Assembly: GCA_001798075.1 (NCBI GenBank)
Contig: MGRG01000011.1
Coordinates: 136,476 to 188,584 of the forward strand
Direction of reading: 5' to 3'
From: Deltaproteobacteria bacterium RIFCSPHIGHO2_01_FULL_43_49
GTDB lineage: Bacteria > UBA10199 > SPLOWO2-01-44-7
DNA: 52,109 nt
The notes beneath the pieces are model-generated. The model did no database searches. It worked only from the letters and a program-made list of their open reading frames with translations, and was not told the DNA's origin. Within the stretch, counting starts at the first letter, position 1; the number at the start of each line of letters is the position of its first letter. A program made the position numbers and the translations under genes. Of the stretch, positions 3,915-46,478 are shown one piece after another.

Positions 3915-3947
3915 AACAAAAAAGCCGTCAGCGTTGATCGCGACGGC
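3915..3947 (-). terminator. Rho-independent terminator after rnr
   Basis: On the minus strand GCCGTC and GACGGC pair around a 12-nt loop and are followed by TTTTTTG and TTTT. It lies 30 nt past the rnr stop and just before the ribosome site of the ydcH-like gene, so it should end rnr transcripts unless it is leaky. Confidence 0.75.
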
Positions 3948-3976
3948 CCCAATCAGCAATTAAGGTGCTGACCCAT

Positions 3977-5926
3977 TCACGCGTCCATCTTACTGAAGGT
4001 GTTTTTTGTGTCAAGTAAATTTAAAAATGTGCGTCTTTCCGACAACTTAACCTCTTCTACCGTGATACGCACCCGATCCCCTATCTTAAAGAGTTTTTTG
4101 TGTCGCTTCCCCTTGAGTGCCAAATGTTCCTGATCAAAGGCGTAAATGTCCCCTTTGAGGCTCTCCAGAGGCACCAAACCCTCCACAAAATAATCGATCA
4201 ATTCGACAAAAAAGCCAAATTTGGTGACATGGGAGATGACGCCTTCATAGGTCTCGCCCAATTTGTCTTGCATAAACAGCGTCATATGAAGGGCGATCAT
4301 TTCCCGTTCGGCCTCCATCGATCTTCTTTCTTGGCGGGAGCAATGTTCGGACATTTGTTCTAATAAAATTTCGGGTGGACGCCACTTGGCATCACCCCAT
4401 GCCGTCTTCAACAATCGATGGACAATCAAATCAGGATAGCGCCGGATGGGCGATGTAAAATGACAATAACATTTGCTAGCCAACCCAAAGTGACCGATAT
4501 TGTTTGCGCTATAGACAGCCTGCGCCATGGAGCGAAGCAACATAGAATTGATAAGGCGCATCTCTGCATGCCCCTTAAAATATTTTAAAATTTTCATGAG
4601 ATGATGAGAGGGAACAGGAAAATGAAAGCGCCCTTGAAAACCTAGACGTTGGACTATTTTGTAAAAGCGGCTGATTTTTTCTGGGTCGGGGCCGTCATGG
4701 ACACGAAAGACACAGCCGACTTTCTTTTTCACCAGAAATCGCGCCACCGCTTCGTTGGCGGCGATCATTAACTCTTCAATAATTTGATGGCTCCAGTTAC
4801 GTTCTGTTTTTTCGATATGTTCAATGCCACCCGTCAAATCCAAAATAATTTCTGGCTCCGGCAAGTCAAAATCGAGGGAGCCTCGCATGCTTCGCAAGTT
4901 TTTCAACCTTTCGGCTGCCTCTGATAATATCTCCAGCGTTTCCAGTAAAAACTGGGTTTCTTTTCTTAGTGATTCTTCTTTGTCAACCAACAACCTACGA
5001 ACAAGTGTGTAGGTCAGACGGGCATGACTTTGAAAGATGGCGGGATAAAAATGCTCTTCAATCACCTCGCCATGATGAGAAAGGAGCAGCTCAGCAACCA
5101 ATGCCAGCCGATCTTCATGCGGTTTCAAACTGCACAAGTCATTGGAAAGAATTTCGGGCAACATGGGTAAGACACGGCCGGGAAAATAGACCGACGTGGC
5201 CCTTTCATAAGCTTCTTTATCAAGGGCTGAATGCGGCTGGACATAGTGACTGACATCAGCGATGGCAACCCAAAGTCTTATTCTGTCGTTGGGCAATTTT
5301 TGCGCACAAACGGCGTCATCAAAATCTTTGGCGTCATCTCCATCGATAGTGATAAAGGGTAAAGAGCGCAGGTCTTTTCGACCGTCGCTTGTATCTCGTG
5401 AAGCGTATCTCGTAGGCGCTTCACTCTTCACGAACGACGCTTCACGCTCGACAGGCTCTGGAAACATCTTCGGCAATTGATGCTTCGCAATCACATATTC
5501 CACCTCTGACGGAAGACTTCCTCTTTTAGGCAGTTGTTCAATGACCTCTCCTTCTAATGGTCGTTTCTCGGACGGATATTGGGTTATTTTGGCGACAACG
5601 TAATCACCATGCTGCATCCCTCTGGGAGCAGAGACAAGACGCATCTTGTGTCTAACCCTCTGATCTTCCGACAAAACAGACCATTTGCCTGCCTGATATT
5701 CCAGTCTTCCCACCATTTGTTTGAGTCTTCTTTGAACAATTGCTTTGATGGAGCCTTCCATCAATCCCTTGGCATTTTTGCGGACGGTAACTTCCACCAA
5801 ATCACCATGCATGGCATCTCCCATCAGGCGGGCGGGGATAAAAACATCGGGATGACCAGATTGGGTGGGGGCTACAAAACCGTAGCCTTCATAATGGAGG
5901 GATAACTCCCCTATAATAGTGCTCAT
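3977..5926 (-). CDS. rnr: Ribonuclease R (RNB-family 3'-5' exoribonuclease)
   Basis: 649 aa. Degrades structured RNA from the 3' end. A cold-shock OB domain opens the protein (residues 1-65), a second OB region follows, then the RNB domain with TIDGDDAKDFDD (about 193-204) supplying the metal-binding Asp residues, and a C-terminal S1 domain (VISHVTKFGFFVEL). It lacks the N-terminal HTH and the Lys-rich tail of E. coli RNase R, so it is short for the family but complete at the core. Residues 160-181, in the linker just before GRKDLR, are an extra peptide (EASFVKSEAPTRYASRDTSD) encoded by a 64-bp palindromic element also present in two histidine kinases in this window. No good ribosome site precedes the ATG. 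Confidence 0.92.
   Translation of the reverse strand: MSTIIGELSLHYEGYGFVAPTQSGHPDVFIPARLMGDAMHGDLVEVTVRKNAKGLMEGSIKAIVQRRLKQMVGRLEYQAGKWSVLSEDQRVRHKMRLVSAPRGMQHGDYVVAKITQYPSEKRPLEGEVIEQLPKRGSLPSEVEYVIAKHQLPKMFPEPVEREASFVKSEAPTRYASRDTSDGRKDLRSLPFITIDGDDAKDFDDAVCAQKLPNDRIRLWVAIADVSHYVQPHSALDKEAYERATSVYFPGRVLPMLPEILSNDLCSLKPHEDRLALVAELLLSHHGEVIEEHFYPAIFQSHARLTYTLVRRLLVDKEESLRKETQFLLETLEILSEAAERLKNLRSMRGSLDFDLPEPEIILDLTGGIEHIEKTERNWSHQIIEELMIAANEAVARFLVKKKVGCVFRVHDGPDPEKISRFYKIVQRLGFQGRFHFPVPSHHLMKILKYFKGHAEMRLINSMLLRSMAQAVYSANNIGHFGLASKCYCHFTSPIRRYPDLIVHRLLKTAWGDAKWRPPEILLEQMSEHCSRQERRSMEAEREMIALHMTLFMQDKLGETYEGVISHVTKFGFFVELIDYFVEGLVPLESLKGDIYAFDQEHLALKGKRHKKLFKIGDRVRITVEEVKLSERRTFLNLLDTKNTFSKMDA
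5383..5446 (-). repeat. 64-bp in-frame palindromic element, copy A (inside rnr)
   Basis: The minus strand reads CGTGAAGCGTCGTTCGTGAA and continues to AAGCGACG. It matches the copies at 28217-28280 and 30395-30458 at nearly every base and has the same 64-bp length. Internal inverted arms (GCGTCGTTCGT against ACAAGCGACG; GTGAA against TTCAC) would fold the RNA. It is read in frame and lies in the RNase R linker. Confidence 0.85.
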
Positions 5927-5940
5927 TTATGATGAGGAGG

Positions 5941-6035
5941 GTGAGAAAGTGACGGGTCCTGTCCCTCCGTATTGCCGTGGGGGCCCCTAACAAAACCCCA
6001 CGGCCAACACTCCGGGCCACCCATTACTTTCTCAC
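5941..6035. ncRNA. Long imperfect hairpin, possible structured RNA
   Basis: Outer arms GTGAGAAAGT (5941-5950) and ACTTTCTCAC (6026-6035) pair perfectly. Inner arms GCCGTGGGG and CCCCACGGC pair around a roughly 12-nt loop, with weaker pairing and one purine-rich internal loop between. It fills the spacer between divergent rnr and the zinc-ribbon gene. It could be a small RNA, a leader structure or a MITE-like relic. It lacks the conserved SRP RNA loop. The structure is well supported; the role is unknown. Confidence 0.45.
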
Positions 6036-6147
6036 CAGTCCCATAGTACTTTATTGCTGAATTATGCTTGCAAAACAAGGCTATTTAGTGTTGGAGGATT
6101 TTTGGGCTTGCCGCAGCTCAAAGCTTTGGCGGAACAAGGAGGGATTT

Positions 6148-6309
6148 ATGGGCAAAGAAGAATGGGAAGAACTTGGGTTTGAAAAAGATGATGTTTGTCC
6201 TAATTGCGGCCAGATGACTGAAGGAGAAAATGTCTGTCCCCACTGTGGTGCCATATTAACGGAAGAAGATGACGAACTAGACGGTTTCCACGAAGACGAA
6301 GAGACTTAA
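6148..6309 (+). CDS. Small double-CxxC zinc-ribbon protein
   Basis: 53 aa from the ATG at 6148, preceded by AAGGAGGG about 5 nt upstream; upstream in-frame starts lack such a site. CPNCG and CPHCG, separated by 12 residues, form a zinc-ribbon knuckle, and the C-terminus is strongly acidic. Such proteins are often annotated only as zinc ribbon proteins and their role is unknown. The stop lies 10 nt before tRNA-Leu, so the two could share a transcript that is processed at the tRNA. Confidence 0.8.
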   Translation: MGKEEWEELGFEKDDVCPNCGQMTEGENVCPHCGAILTEEDDELDGFHEDEET

Positions 6310-41575: not shown

Positions 41576-44344
41576 TTAGCGCACCTGCGCCATATCTACC
41601 GGAATGACAGGGGGTTGATTGGGGTCATTAATCAGCTGGTACTCAATTAACCGTTTGACCGTTTCATAAGATATTCCGCCGACATAGGGCCTGCCAGGAA
41701 GGCTGAATTCCTGGGTGTTGTAGACCAGAGGGATTTTGCGAAGACTATTATCCGAGCTTTGGGCTATCCTGAATTCTGTGGGACATTGCACCACCCGGTC
41801 GTCTTTACCGTCGCCATCAAAGTCAGCCGCGAAGGGGTGACATTCAGGTCCGCCAAAAACGCCGTTTGGTTGAGGTTGGATAATGCTATAAATGCTTAGA
41901 TCAAATAATGACCAAAAAGAATTTGATGTTTTGATTCCAAGAGAAGCTGGATAAAAGTCGCCAGACACTGGTACTGAATCATTACCCCCAAATGGCATAT
42001 CTACTAAAGCGTCTTCGTAGTAATTTCCTTTGTTTCCTCCATCCAAATCCACTCCCCACCATTGTCCCGCATTGGGAACACCATCCGGGATTTTATAACT
42101 AATAAAAGCAGCTGTAGAACCGCCCGCATCTGCCACTGGCAAATACGCCCACCCAGGCGCAGCAGCCAATTCTGCTGATGTAAGATAGGTCACATTCAGG
42201 TCAAATGTTCCATAATCACTGTGATTGGGCCCACCGAAATCAATACTCCAAATGCCATCACTCTTTGCGACTGCCAAATCGATGTATCCATCTCCGTTAT
42301 AATCTCCAGGCACCGGCCTCCCATATTTTGCCAGTTTTACATCCCGATTGAGTTCGTCTTTGTAAGGTAGTTGAATTATCCAATCCCAGTTCGTGGTTCG
42401 AGGTCCGGGGTTCGAGGTGCGTAACAACTCGTTGTTTGTAAACTTGATATACCAAATACCGTTTTCTTTGTCATAGATGCTCAAGTCGGTGCGCCCATCA
42501 CTGTTGTAATCCTCCGCCACCGGCCAAACCCAACGCCCCCCTATGGGGGAAGTTCCAAGCTCCAAGTTCCAAGCTCCAAAATCATTTTTGGATGACAAAT
42601 CAATTTGCCAACGATCTTTCGTCCAATTCACAAGGTCTGCTTTTTGATCCCCATCAAAATCAAGTGTTTTGGCAATCTCAATGCCGGTCGGCCAAATGGC
42701 GCCCGCGGCGCAATCGTAATCGGATTGGGTGTAGTCAATATCAATGCAAGTAGGTTTGATGGATCCTTGACAAGAAGTCGGATCTTGCAGAAGCAACTCA
42801 ACTTGTGGTGGACCTACCTCTCGCACTTTGTACCCAAGGCTTCTGATATACTGATCCACTTCCTCCGGAATGGGGGTTCCATATCGCCAGCCCGGAGCAT
42901 GTTGATCCAGGTAAGTTTCTATCTCCTTTGTATCTCTCAACACACACTTTGCAGTTTCGGGACAATTTACATCGCTGACCTCGGGATGATGGTAGTTGCA
43001 AACGAGCTGCACACCTCTTTGACGCAACTCTCTTCTTCGATCTCCTTTGATCTCCGTGCCACTCGCAATTTCTGGAAAATCCCTTTGAATGCTGGCCCAA
43101 TAATCATCAAAAATATTTAAAGCCGCATCCATGCGGGGCTGTTTGCCAATATTGCAGCCATTTTCTCCTTCAGCCGGAACACCCGATTGGATTAAAATTT
43201 CGCGGATTTTTTCAGGAGTCAATTGTTTATAATTGCTTCCCATCTGTCGCATTGCATAACTTTGTAAAAGGGCAACTGTACCCGCAATGATTGCCCCCGC
43301 CGGAGAAGTTCCCCCAAAGGCATTAGTATAATAAACATTGGGGTCCCCTGTGTTTGGGTTGGACGGCCCATACCAGTCGAAGCCTTTACCAGGGTAGCTT
43401 GTTGTTACAACACCGGAGCCCCAGGCAAATAAATTAACGCGGCGACCGCAGTTGCCAAAAGGAGCTTTTTCATGATTGGCCCCCATTGAGGCACCCACCA
43501 TGATCGCGCCGGAATCCTGTCTGCTTAAATTGGGCCACCTCAAACCTTCCTCATTCGTCAAATACCTCGTTGTATCCATGTTGATATTGCCGTTGCCAGC
43601 CGGCAAAATTACAGGAACCCCCATGGCGGTTGCGATTTGATATGACTCAAAAGAATCGGGAAAAAATTCCAAGGAAACACATTCCGTTTGATCATCGTTG
43701 TTACAATGCAATGCAGAGCTTGGCCAGGTGCCAGGATTAGACGTTTGTTCTTCCACTAACCATGCAGAAGCACCTTTTCGAATAAAATCAGGTTCTCCAC
43801 CTCCTGGAGGAATACAGGTTTTGCTGTCCGGACTGATTCCGTCAATTCCATGTTCATTGTGCAATCCTATTAAAATGCCCATCACCATTGTGGCATGCGT
43901 ACTTGGCCCATCCCCCATACTGCATTGATGAACAGTAGCAGGAAAATCTTCATGTTTCCAATTTGGCTTTCCTTCTTCGTCTCCAATGTAAGTGTTTTGA
44001 CCTGTTATCCCCCTCATCCAAACCGCACGAATATTCAGATCATCTAGATATCCTTGATTGCCTGTCAAGTCAGGTACGGAATTAATGCCAGGAAAACTGG
44101 ATTTCATTCTTGGATAGATCATTTCAAACAACGGCTCTTTGACAAGTTTTATCAAAAGCTCTTTGGCTTTTGTTCTGTCGGGCTCGGCTATCACAAGATG
44201 CCTTCGCAAATCCGGCAAAGACTTGCCAACAACCACTTCGAGTCTTTTCCGCTCTCTTTCCACCAAAACCGGATCGCCAAATTGATTTTTGAATAAAAGA
44301 GTGGGGTAGCGATCTTTTAGTTGAGACAAAGAATCAAAAAATTT
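41576..44344 (-). pseudogene. S8 peptidase/FG-GAP gene copy 3, 3' part, cut off by the transposon
   Basis: About 920 codons of the mature protein: Asp region GDEEGKPNWKHEDF, His in THATMVMGI (Ala replaces the usual Gly after His), Asn in PAGNGN, Ser in GGTSPAG, then four Asp-rich FG-GAP loops. The signal peptide and first part are at 46248-46478, on the other side of the 1895-bp insertion. Removing the element and one target copy restores the reading LKFFDSLSQL in frame. A truncated product could start in the transposon end but would lack a signal. Confidence 0.85.
44337..44344. repeat. Target-site duplication, left (AAAAATTT)
   Basis: Eight bases identical to 46240-46247 across the element. 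The length fits IS1595-family transposition. Confidence 0.9.
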
Positions 44345-44376
44345 CGGAAGTATGTACTTAGCGCACAAAATAACTC

Positions 44377-44403
44377 TTGACAAGTATGTGCGTTATGTAT
44401 AAT
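44377..44403 (+). promoter_or_regulatory. Transposase promoter
   Basis: TTGACA (44377-44382) and TATAAT (44398-44403) with a short 15-bp spacer, ending 9 nt before the transposase ATG. The very short leader leaves no room for a strong ribosome site, which would keep transposase output low. Confidence 0.6.
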
Positions 44404-44412
44404 AATTAGGCC

Positions 44413-45384
44413 ATGAAAACAAAGCAACACAAAGTAGGTGAGAATAAATCAGAAGTCCTAAAGGCCCTTCCAATCGCCTGTATGGATGAAACCAAAGCGG
44501 TTGAGTTTATAGAGGCTCAAAGATGGGGTGAAATCCCTTGTTGTCCCCATTGTGGAGGTAAAGAAGTTTCACAGATGAAAGATAAAGATGGAAATCGAAA
44601 CGAGCGGTTTTTATGGCGTTGTGCTAACTGCCAAAAAAGCAAGGCCAAGCAATCTCAATTTACTGTCCGTGTAGGGACTGTTTTTGAGTCCAGTCGGATA
44701 CCTCTTAAGTATTGGTGCTATGTTTTTTGGCGTGCCTGTACTTCCAAAAAAGGCGTGAGTGCTTTAGAAATTCAAAGGCAAACAGGTCTTTCTTATAAAT
44801 CGGCTTTGTTTCTTTTACACCGAATCCGTTATGCAATGGCCCCAGAAAATGTTGAATTGTTGAAAGGAACTGTAGAAGTCGACGAAACCTATGTTGGCGG
44901 TAAGCCTAGATATAGAGGCAATAATAAGCGAGGACGTGGAACAAAAAAGCAACCCGTTCTTGCAATGGTTGAACGTGGCGGCAATGTTAAAGCGCATGTC
45001 ATTCCTAACGTAAGCGGCAAAACTCTTAAAACAGCTATTAGAGAAAGTGTTGATAAGTCTTCTCGAATTATGACTGACGAAAACCCTTCTTATAATGGCT
45101 TGCATGATTTTGCTGGGGGTCATCATCCAATCAATCATAGCCTTAATGAATATGTCCGAGGCGACATCACTACAAACACAGTTGAGTCATTCTTTGCCAT
45201 TGTGAAACGTGGTATCAATGGGGTTTATCACTGCGTGAGCAAAAAGCACTTGCACCGCTATCTTTCAGAATTTGAATTTCGCTATAATCACAGGAAGTTA
45301 GAGGATGGCGAAAGGGTGGTTGCTCTTATTAAAAACACACAAGGAAAACGGTTACTTTACAGAGAGCCAGTAAGTTTAAATTGA
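44413..45384 (+). CDS. IS1595-family transposase
   Basis: 323 aa. An N-terminal zinc ribbon (CCPHCGG at 43-49 and CANC at 70-73) binds the transposon ends. The DDE/DDN-type catalytic core (ISXO2-like) has VEVDETYVGGK (Asp157), MTDENPSYNGL (Asp222) and TNTVESFFAIVKRGI (Asn255/Glu258), followed by HLHRYLSEFEFRYNHR. Length and motifs are complete, so the element may still move. It catalyses cut-and-paste or copy transposition with 8-bp target copies. Confidence 0.95.
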   Translation: MKTKQHKVGENKSEVLKALPIACMDETKAVEFIEAQRWGEIPCCPHCGGKEVSQMKDKDGNRNERFLWRCANCQKSKAKQSQFTVRVGTVFESSRIPLKYWCYVFWRACTSKKGVSALEIQRQTGLSYKSALFLLHRIRYAMAPENVELLKGTVEVDETYVGGKPRYRGNNKRGRGTKKQPVLAMVERGGNVKAHVIPNVSGKTLKTAIRESVDKSSRIMTDENPSYNGLHDFAGGHHPINHSLNEYVRGDITTNTVESFFAIVKRGINGVYHCVSKKHLHRYLSEFEFRYNHRKLEDGERVVALIKNTQGKRLLYREPVSLN

Positions 45385-45423
45385 CGGGTATTACGATTGA
45401 TATATAGTCAGAAATAAGAAATG

Positions 45424-45513
45424 TGGGAGTAGCGGGATTTGAACCCGCAAAGGGTGTTAGAGACCCTAGTAGATTCCAAGTCTACAGCGTTTACCGTGTT
45501 TCGCCATACTCCC
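45424..45513 (-). tRNA. Class II tRNA, leucine-type body with UGG (proline) anticodon
   Basis: 90 nt. Acceptor GGGAGTA/TACTCCC (7 bp), discriminator A, U8-G9, D stem GCG/CGC with GG in the loop, anticodon stem GTAGA/TCTAC around CTTGGAA, giving anticodon TGG, a long variable arm AGGGT/ACCCT, and T arm GCGGG-TTCAAAT-CCCGC. Two unpaired bases between the variable stem and T stem and A73 are leucine-type features; serine tRNAs usually have one and G73. Pro tRNAs are class I with C1-G72, while this has G1-C72. CCA is not encoded. Flanks extend the acceptor complementarity (GAAAT...ATTTC). Confidence 0.88.
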
Positions 45514-45550
45514 ACCATTTCTTAGGCGGGGAACCTAGCGTTCCCCGTTT

Positions 45551-45976
45551 TTACTTGAACATCTGCTTTACGTTACCTTCCTCTTTCTTCATCGTTAGTA
45601 AACCGAAAGTATTTGGTGCATCCTTATAAAAAGTGCGCCCCTCCTCCGAATAGCGATTTAATGAACCAACAATTGAAGCCTTATTTGCCCTCGTCAATTC
45701 CTTCCCCAGTGCTTTCAAAATTTCATCGGCGTGCATGGGTTTTCCGCTTGATTTTATAATGTCTCTAGCGTGAGCTAATTCACTTCCTTCCCGTAAAGGC
45801 CTTTCTTGATTTGGTTTATTAGATTGTGGAACTTTTTTGCGTACATCTTCAATCAATTCAAGTTGAGCTAAGATTTTATCGAGTTCTTTTTGAGCCGTAG
45901 CAATGGTAGCCTCGAAAGCCTCTTTCTCAGATTGCAGTTTTTTTTCTTTTTTCGTAAGCTCTGTTTCGTAACTCAT
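45551..45976 (-). CDS. HARE-HTH-like passenger protein of the transposon
   Basis: 141 aa from the ATG at 45976. Residues 1-50 form a charged coiled coil (KKEKKLQSEKEAFEAT); residues about 75-135 read HARDIIKSSGKPMHADEILKALG...YSEEGRTFYKDAPNTFGLL, matching the HARE-HTH winged-helix pattern found in RNA polymerase delta, ASXL and restriction-associated proteins. It may bind DNA, for example the element's ends, or modulate transcription. No strong ribosome site is visible. It is divergent from the 48-codon ORF. Confidence 0.7.
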   Translation of the reverse strand: MSYETELTKKEKKLQSEKEAFEATIATAQKELDKILAQLELIEDVRKKVPQSNKPNQERPLREGSELAHARDIIKSSGKPMHADEILKALGKELTRANKASIVGSLNRYSEEGRTFYKDAPNTFGLLTMKKEEGNVKQMFK

Positions 45977-46030
45977 GGTTTGCACAGGTAGCACAAGCCA
46001 GAATATATGCAAGGACGAAAAATACAAAAC

Positions 46031-46177
46031 ATGAACGATATGGATAAAAAAGGGGTGGGGCCAAAGGAAACTCGCCTTAAAATCAAAGGCTTAGAATGGG
46101 ACAAGGCCATCAAGAAAGCTCTTGATAAAAAACGGCCTGAAAAGGACTGGCCCAAGATGGACAAGAAATCAAAATAA
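46031..46177 (+). CDS. Small basic passenger ORF of the transposon
   Basis: 48 codons (an in-frame ATG at 46007 would add eight). The product is Lys-rich with KETRLKIKGLEWDKAIKKAL and RPEKDWPKMDKK. I recall similar short basic proteins beside transposases of this type but cannot confirm it here. AAGGA lies 15 nt upstream, rather far. It ends 40 nt before the right inverted repeat. Confidence 0.5.
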   Translation: MNDMDKKGVGPKETRLKIKGLEWDKAIKKALDKKRPEKDWPKMDKKSK

Positions 46178-46239
46178 AAATGGTTTGTTTTGAGATAGGA
46201 AGACTCGTAAACTGGCTGTGCGTTAACTACATACTTCCG

Positions 46240-46247
46240 AAAAATTT
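46240..46247. repeat. Target-site duplication, right (AAAAATTT)
   Basis: Matches 44337-44344 exactly. Confidence 0.9.
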
Positions 46248-46478
46248 TAATGTAAGGGCTATCTCACCTTTATAGTTTGGAGAATCGATTGCTTTAACAA
46301 AATCGTTCAAAGTTCCAGGTTCGAGGTTCCAGGTTCCGGTGGGGGAATTATCGGGTTGAGTATTGTTTTCGGAGGGTGTGAAAATATTTTGACTATTTGG
46401 CAGTAAACTTTGCCCCCCACCACAGCCCACCAAAACAGAGAACATCACACTTAGAACAGTAAACGTCTTTTGATTCAT
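46248..46478 (-). pseudogene. S8 peptidase gene copy 3, 5' part
   Basis: The first 77 codons: a signal peptide with lipobox (SVLVGC), GGGQSLLPNSQNIFTPSENN shared with copies 1 and 2, a heptamer-coded GTWNLEPGT segment, then IDSPNYKGEIALTLK. Reading continues a few codons into the transposon and stops. A short lipoprotein could still be exported. Promoter and leader are intact (46504-46559). Confidence 0.85.

Follow-up and report, generated by a model that had tools for sequence, protein, structure and literature searches.

A predicted tRNA with a leucine-type body and a proline anticodon, matched by conserved CCA codons, in an IS1595-family transposon: a likely sense-codon-recoding mobile element

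The element and its insertion site

The window, by which we mean the whole stretch of 52,109 nucleotides that was analysed, comes from Deltaproteobacteria bacterium RIFCSPHIGHO2_01_FULL_43_49 (contig MGRG01000011.1), and all positions are counted from its first letter. It holds an IS1595-family element of 1,895 bp (44345-46239), which is single-copy in this genome and carries, besides its transposase gene, a cargo of a tRNA, a HARE-like coiled-coil gene and a small basic ORF (Table 1). The two ends of the element match over CGGAAGTATGTA, which lies inside a 35-nt arm that is 86% complementary. Every feature tested for membership of the IS1595 family was found, including the inverted repeats and the 8-bp target duplication, and an independent search found 8-bp copies and matching ends in many other elements.

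The transposase is intact. It matches the ISXO2-like DDE domain in Pfam (PF12762, E 9.5e-46), with the domain beginning near residue 150, the N-terminal Zn ribbon (PF12760, E 3.7e-11) and the NCBIfam model NF033547 (E 1e-60). Plasmid and phage collections yielded only distant transposases, less than 43% identical.

The first-pass annotation of this DNA had delimited the unit by its ends, its 8-bp target copies and an intact transposase, and sequence and domain matches confirm these limits. Of the cargo that it named, the tRNA is real as judged by Rfam and by its fold, the small ORF is real and conserved, and the HARE-HTH match is weak. That match scores 18.4 bits in the window, below the Pfam gathering cut-off of 25.9, and the homologue in another element, L181, reaches 25.2 bits against the same cut-off (E 2e-5). 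The window gene is encoded on the same strand as the tRNA and is placed 37 bp upstream of it. Searches of IMG/VR, phages, plasmids and the genomes of 99 relatives with this gene found nothing outside the window genome, and homologues surfaced only through transposase searches. The small basic ORF matched no known family in searches that included Pfam and NCBIfam; it is kept in related elements and was found in 14 tRNA loci.

The gene of insertion encodes a lipobox-bearing S8 (subtilisin-type) protease on the minus strand (41576-46478). When only one target copy is counted, the parts of the gene on either side of the element share a frame, and the gene can be treated as one split reading frame because the coordinate arithmetic agrees (46478-(44383+1903)=192, which is divisible by 3). 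The perfect target copies in an otherwise in-frame, interrupted gene are consistent with a recent movement of the element.

Table 1. Features of the element and of its borders in the window.
Feature	Position	Strand	Basis or remark
Left target-site duplication, AAAAATTT, 8 bp	44337..44344		Sequence
Left terminal inverted repeat, CGGAAGTATGTACTTAGCGCACA	44345..44367	+	Inverted repeat, 86% over 35 nt
Promoter-like site before the transposase, TTGACA-18-AATAAT	44377..44406	+	Consensus match (11 of 12) only
Transposase of the IS1595 family (323 aa) with Zn ribbon and DDE domain	44413..45384	+	Pfam, NCBIfam
CCA codon, transposase residue 20	44470..44472	+	CCA in 12/13 UGG elements that have Pro at this site
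CCA codon, transposase residue 144, immediately ahead of the DDE domain	44842..44844	+	CCA in 11/11 UGG elements that have Pro at this site
CCA codon, transposase residue 319, C-terminal tail	45367..45369	+	CCA in 13/15 UGG elements that have Pro at this site
tRNA of class II with UGG (Pro) anticodon on a Leu-type body; A73; CCA end not encoded	45424..45513	-	
Hairpin resembling a terminator, with a T run; converges on the tRNA	45528..45550	+	
Coiled-coil and weakly HARE-HTH-like gene	45551..45976	-	Pfam HARE-HTH, E 0.003
Small basic ORF, about 56 aa, motif GPxxxRLKIxGxxW..A..KA..KKRP	46007..46177	+	Two alignments, 14-locus cluster
CCA codon, small ORF, Pro of the GP motif	46061..46063	+	CCA in 11/17 UGG elements
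Right terminal inverted repeat	46217..46239	-	Inverted-repeat search
Right target-site duplication, AAAAATTT, 8 bp	46240..46247		Sequence

Promoter-like sites such as the one in Table 1 were, as a class, not more frequent than in shuffled sequences. The terminator-like hairpin is placed just past the tRNA, so a transposase mRNA ending there would carry antisense tRNA at its 3' end.

The chimeric tRNA

The tRNA gene of 90 nt scores 59.8 bits with the Rfam tRNA model and its class II cloverleaf has a fold z of -3.2. It has a 7-bp acceptor stem with G1:C72, a 5-bp T stem and a long variable arm. The anticodon stem GUAGA/UCUAC encloses the loop CUUGGAA, which gives the anticodon UGG. ARAGORN calls this tRNA Pro on the anticodon alone, while the body is of the Leu type.

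Classification of the tRNA was carried out with a covariance model and key positions and not with overall pairwise identity, which classifies poorly since it favours short class I tRNAs. Under a model made from the related tRNAs, the five tRNA-Leu of the host score 66-80 bits, compared with 40-50 for Ser, 37-38 for Pro and 27 for Tyr. In an alignment of 38 related tRNAs, A73, U8, A14, A15 and U48 are found in all 38, while G stands at position 1 in 36 and at position 72 in just 2. Among the identity elements for leucine are A73 and the A14/A15-U48 core, and LeuRS largely ignores the anticodon. Measured against tRNA-Leu, the window tRNA has the class II body features together with UGG in place of a Leu anticodon. 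A normal tRNA-Pro was rejected as an assignment, as the gene is class II, 90 nt long and has G1:C72, as opposed to a class I body with C1:G72. By these comparisons the predicted tRNA is a chimera of a tRNA-Leu body and a Pro anticodon, a combination that should take leucine and read CCA, normally a proline codon. The host has ordinary tRNA-Pro genes (UGG, CGG, GGG) and Leu tRNAs elsewhere in its genome, and CCA would consequently be ambiguous.

ProRS recognition of tRNA-Pro involves the anticodon bases G35 and G36 as well as A73. The tRNA shares all three with tRNA-Pro, and it could in principle be charged with proline, or with another amino acid, and simply supply decoding of CCA. We consider this very improbable: the body is class II, G at position 1 and the near absence of G at position 72 across the alignment disagree with the C1:G72 pair of bacterial tRNA-Pro, versions of the same body with UUA, UCA and UGC anticodons cannot be proline tRNAs, and the host already reads CCA.

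The sequences flanking the tRNA, AAGAAATG and CATTTCTT, lengthen its acceptor helix (fold z -4.7), and this pairing is perhaps a processing stem.

Recurrence in related elements

Relatives with ends of the CGGAAGTATGTA type were collected by searching with the transposase. They include L033 (74%, the window's own class) and, in Planctomycetota, L058, L059, L060 (about 58-61%) and L075. L033 has a 102-nt UGG tRNA that ARAGORN does not call. The set selected by transposase consists of 12 tRNA-bearing elements (window, L033, L058, L059, L060, L075, L180-L182, L084, L074, L192) and includes IMG/VR entries and a second copy in one genome. Its 12 class II tRNAs, which lie inside the elements or next to them, comprise nine with UGG, three with UUA, which reads the stop codon UAA, and none with a Leu anticodon. 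Elements found later add UGG (L276, L281, L286), AGG (L274), UGC (L264), UCA (L314) and UUA (L334) types.

Searches that began from the tRNA pattern lead to the same transposases. In 392 planctomycete genomes all six UGG tRNAs found have an IS1595 transposase no more than about 3 kb away, and in IMG/VR 8 of 16 structurally sound UGG tRNAs are beside one. Four further UGG pattern matches (L114, L137, L150, L176), which are phage tRNA-like, were excluded for poor anticodon arms. A cmscan of 35 more distant IS1595 loci gave Leu-body tRNAs only in L074 and L192. Some tRNA-less loci have short or contig-end flanks (e.g. L183, L261, L265), where a tRNA may be hidden, and three elements bounded by target copies (L262, L263, L271) have no tRNA inside.

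The gene adjoining the tRNA varies. It is HARE-like in the window and in L181, P63C in L060, and of the XRE-ImmA/IrrE type, resembling the RmrA/spr1629 repressor-antitoxins, in L180, L211 and L214. A coiled-coil winged-helix gene takes this place in L074, L192, L235, L253/L334 and L232 (UUA) and in L100 and L133 (UGG), within about 30 bp past the tRNA and on the same strand. The constant cargo is a predicted tRNA with the small ORF, and the HARE-like gene is one of several interchangeable genes of putative regulator type.

The first-pass annotation had proposed a tRNA and regulator as a defined cargo module rather than a random capture, a view that would fall if other copies with the same ends always lacked the cargo. 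Elements of other phyla with the same ends have both the small ORF and a tRNA of this kind, which bears the proposal out for the tRNA; the HARE-like regulator, however, is exchangeable between elements. The annotation had overlooked the combination of Leu body and Pro anticodon and the conservation of matching CCA codons in the transposase. A recurrent, defined module is thereby strongly supported by the sequence comparison. Acquisition of passenger genes by IS1595-family elements is known (cited in PMC3129680), and a chance capture of a host tRNA would fit that habit. We regard it as extremely improbable and in effect refuted by the copies found, since the same chimeric type occurs with intact stems in diverged elements of several phyla and since CCA codons co-vary with the type of tRNA, as described below.

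CCA codons conserved at fixed sites

Three proline positions of the transposase alignment were examined, corresponding to residues 20, 144 and 319 of the window protein (in some distant members the second lies three columns after 144). The first is close to the N-terminus, the second at the junction ahead of the DDE domain and the third in the C-terminal tail. In elements with a UGG tRNA, 41 of the 47 Pro codons at these sites are CCA, against 25/185 elsewhere in the gene. The site columns were picked on a discovery set of 14 UGG transposases, where CCA accounts for 31/34 Pro codons at the sites and 17/129 elsewhere (Fisher p 8e-18; within-gene permutation, 0 of 20,000). Only the validation set of nine further UGG elements is free of that choice, and it gave 10/13 at the sites and 8/56 elsewhere (p 2e-5; permutation, 3 of 20,000). 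Elements without a UGG tRNA show no such enrichment (2/17 against 32/253, p 1); with L184 included, CCA makes up 4 of the 19 Pro codons at the sites in this group.

The three sites rank highest in third-base conservation (100%, 92% and 87%) among 79 fourfold-degenerate columns of the transposase, and no other column has a consensus A, although third-position GC ranges over 0.30-0.88 and the codons next to the sites vary freely. Common descent of synonymous positions does not account for this pattern. In the transposase tree the UGG elements fall into at least two separated groups. In the main clade, the proline at residue 20 is written CCA in 12/13 UGG elements and in 1/5 others (p about 0.008), the five others being L084 (CCG), L274 (CCC), L183 (CCT), L262 (CCG) and L272 (CCA).

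A similar preference is seen in the small ORF, where the Pro of the GP motif is CCA in 11/17 UGG elements compared with 23/119 of other Pro codons (p 2.4e-4). Several of the small ORFs without CCA at this place have one a codon or two away. Exceptions to the pattern occur in both directions: L216, L286 and L175 have a UGG tRNA and no CCA at the sites, and L184 and L272 have some CCA without a clear UGG tRNA, with only degenerate tRNA-like sequences nearby. Comparison of the elements shows that CCA codon and UGG anticodon are conserved together, and that the chimeric tRNA recurs in such elements.

CCA might merely be tolerated at permissive sites and shunned at structural prolines, owing to misreading by a tRNA whose function lies elsewhere. 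UGG elements do use CCA less at conserved structural prolines (8%) than at variable ones (19%), and residues 20, 144 and 319 do vary in elements without the tRNA. Such tolerance would predict about 20% CCA at permissive sites, as at the variable prolines, and the observed value is 87%. Furthermore, conserved prolines are barely poorer in CCA in UGG elements than in non-UGG elements, where the values are 11% at conserved prolines, 13% at variable prolines and 21% at the sites (L184 included). We therefore consider this explanation quite improbable, and prefer to read the CCA codons as reserved.

The other anticodon types behave differently. No conserved in-frame UAA was found in UUA elements, so self-recoding lacks support for this type and another explanation is needed there. 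Stop-codon readthrough was considered for UUA and UCA elements and rejected, since the stop codons are mixed and there is no common extension. Codons matching the AGG and UGC tRNAs gave no signal, with a single example of each type.

The UUA tRNA itself has the form of a natural ochre suppressor with a Leu body, with no visible in-frame UAA target. The remaining rare anticodons, all in Leu-like tRNAs of IS1595 elements, are UCA (an opal suppressor, L314:5087-5212), UGC (Ala, L264:499-582) and AGG (Pro, L274:3720-3820). In the UGG element L258 an in-frame TAA interrupts the transposase at a position occupied by His or Gln in relatives, and this copy is probably decayed.

Proposed mechanism

We regard it as likely that the transposon carries its own sense-codon-recoding tRNA, by which reserved CCA codons of its own genes are decoded as leucine. 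We also lean towards a fuller proposal of a private genetic code, in which the tRNA reassigns CCA from proline to leucine as a multi-site lock on the transposase and the accessory protein, and in which sister elements have moved to UUA, UCA, UGC and AGG, making up a family of mobile recoding tRNAs. Leucylation of the tRNA, decoding in vivo and control by the regulator are inferred here from sequence comparison.

The tRNA would be leucylated and would compete with the host tRNA-Pro(UGG) for CCA. With the structural prolines of the element written mostly as CCC, CCG or CCT, CCA would be left as a reserved codon whose meaning in the element's proteins is set by the element's tRNA, and transposition would be made dependent on that tRNA. 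The co-oriented gene of DNA-binding type probably controls the tRNA beside it; this gene is HARE-like in the window and of the XRE-ImmA, P63C or coiled-coil winged-helix type in other elements. As several codons need the same reading, the fraction of all-leucine transposase would rise steeply with the level of the tRNA, and by this steep dependence the adjoining regulator could gate transposition.

Leucine at these sites could switch the transposase either on or off. At residue 319 seven elements without a UGG tRNA have a genuine Leu codon, and since leucine is natural at this site we slightly favour leucine at the CCA sites as the activating form. Residues 20 and 144 give no support for this: in elements without a UGG tRNA, Leu is rare there and several have non-CCA Pro codons, so leucine may not be the needed residue at these two sites. 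The tRNA could also act as a brake, with leucine inhibitory.

A different use of the same parts would be general mistranslation by the tRNA, kept in check by a linked repressor: an addiction or stress module of the toxin-antitoxin kind that places leucine at Pro or stop codons proteome-wide, and that the transposase would simply have to survive. A regulator-type gene adjoins the tRNA in the same orientation in many elements. In L180, L211 and L214 the XRE-ImmA/IrrE repressor-antitoxin gene is 6-32 bp upstream, with the tRNA in the place of the toxin gene, and UUA tRNAs directly precede the coiled-coil winged-helix gene. Dedicated mistranslating tRNAs are toxic in E. coli, yet can aid tolerance (PMC10365949). 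An antitoxin-like repressor adjoins the tRNA in some elements only. General mistranslation, however, leaves unexplained why CCA is fixed in the transposase and small ORF of UGG elements and of these alone. We consider it unlikely and retain recoding of the element's own CCA codons as the preferred reading.

Comparison with known systems

Phage-encoded suppressor tRNAs recode the phage's own stop codons. The present case is similar in that a mobile element brings a tRNA altering the decoding of its own genes, and differs in that a sense codon is involved at a few sites in a 2-kb transposon, instead of stop codons in a large genome.

The capture of passenger genes by IS1595-family elements was described by Siguier et al. 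(2009), as cited in PMC3129680. As far as that citation describes them, those elements resemble ours in transposase domains, inverted repeats, 8-bp target copies and extra cargo, and differ in that the window element has as cargo a chimeric tRNA for which the transposase keeps a reserved codon. In open-licence PMC papers we found, provisionally, neither tRNA cargo in IS1595 elements nor another precedent.

Nematode nev-tRNAs have a Leu-like class II body with a non-Leu anticodon and are charged with leucine in vitro, and no misincorporation was detected (PMC4300185). The window tRNA likewise combines a Leu body with a foreign anticodon, whereas nev-tRNAs are chromosomal eukaryotic genes with Gly or Ile anticodons, not mobile and with no reserved codons (PMC4300185). 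In Streptomyces and Kitasatospora, tRNA-ProX has a Pro body with an Ala, Asn or Thr anticodon and a partner enzyme, ProRSx, and is described as a chromosomal mistranslator (PMC11415595, PMC10365949). This too is a bacterial tRNA in which body and anticodon disagree, and the window tRNA is its mirror image (PMC11415595).

Among bacterial class II tRNAs, allo-tRNAs also carry foreign anticodons, the ochre one among them (Mukai et al. 2017, reviewed in PMC7609411), and to that extent they are similar to the window tRNA. They differ in having Ser or Ala identity and an acceptor domain of 12 bp (8/4 or 9/3), with no defined element and no codon co-evolution (PMC7609411). The 7+5 stems and A73 of the window tRNA place it outside this group.

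What is new here is a sense codon reserved in a mobile element's own genes and matched to the element's own tRNA. Reassignment of sense codons is known in whole genomes and organelles, and recoding of stop codons in phages. If the proposal is true, a tRNA with a reserved sense codon in a 2-kb transposon would be a new way of controlling transposition and a source of mobile missense and nonsense suppressors able to perturb or reshape host codes. The questions of how ambiguity of a sense codon begins, and whether nev-tRNAs, allo-tRNAs and other chimeric tRNAs serve dedicated targets, would become testable too. Screens that infer genetic codes can miss recoding of this kind, because Codetta leaves out the proteins encoded by mobile elements, transposons among them (PMC8629427), and ARAGORN reports 'Pro' for this tRNA.

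Further observations

Four elements listed with the UUA type have a second odd tRNA-like gene (L074:1224-1297, L192:1603-1676, L334:5123-5195, L084:2675-2745), with class I bodies and unusual anticodons, ACC, GCU and GGU being examples. Some elements hold pairs of apparently aberrant tRNAs. The element L272:3880-6329 has 8-bp target copies inside a helicase-type gene, a compact tRNA-like fold that ARAGORN does not call, and GCA at the GP site of its small ORF. A class I tRNA with a GGA (Ser) anticodon (L287:5122-5195) lies inside a bounded IS1595 element (3920-6218), while a tRNA-like sequence of 183 nt (L320:5149-5331), whose anticodon arm seems to contain an insertion, lies outside its IS1595 element. 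Finally, L302:47-1029, on a contig of a viral collection that also has an IS1595 transposase, contains an array of about nine tRNA-like genes.
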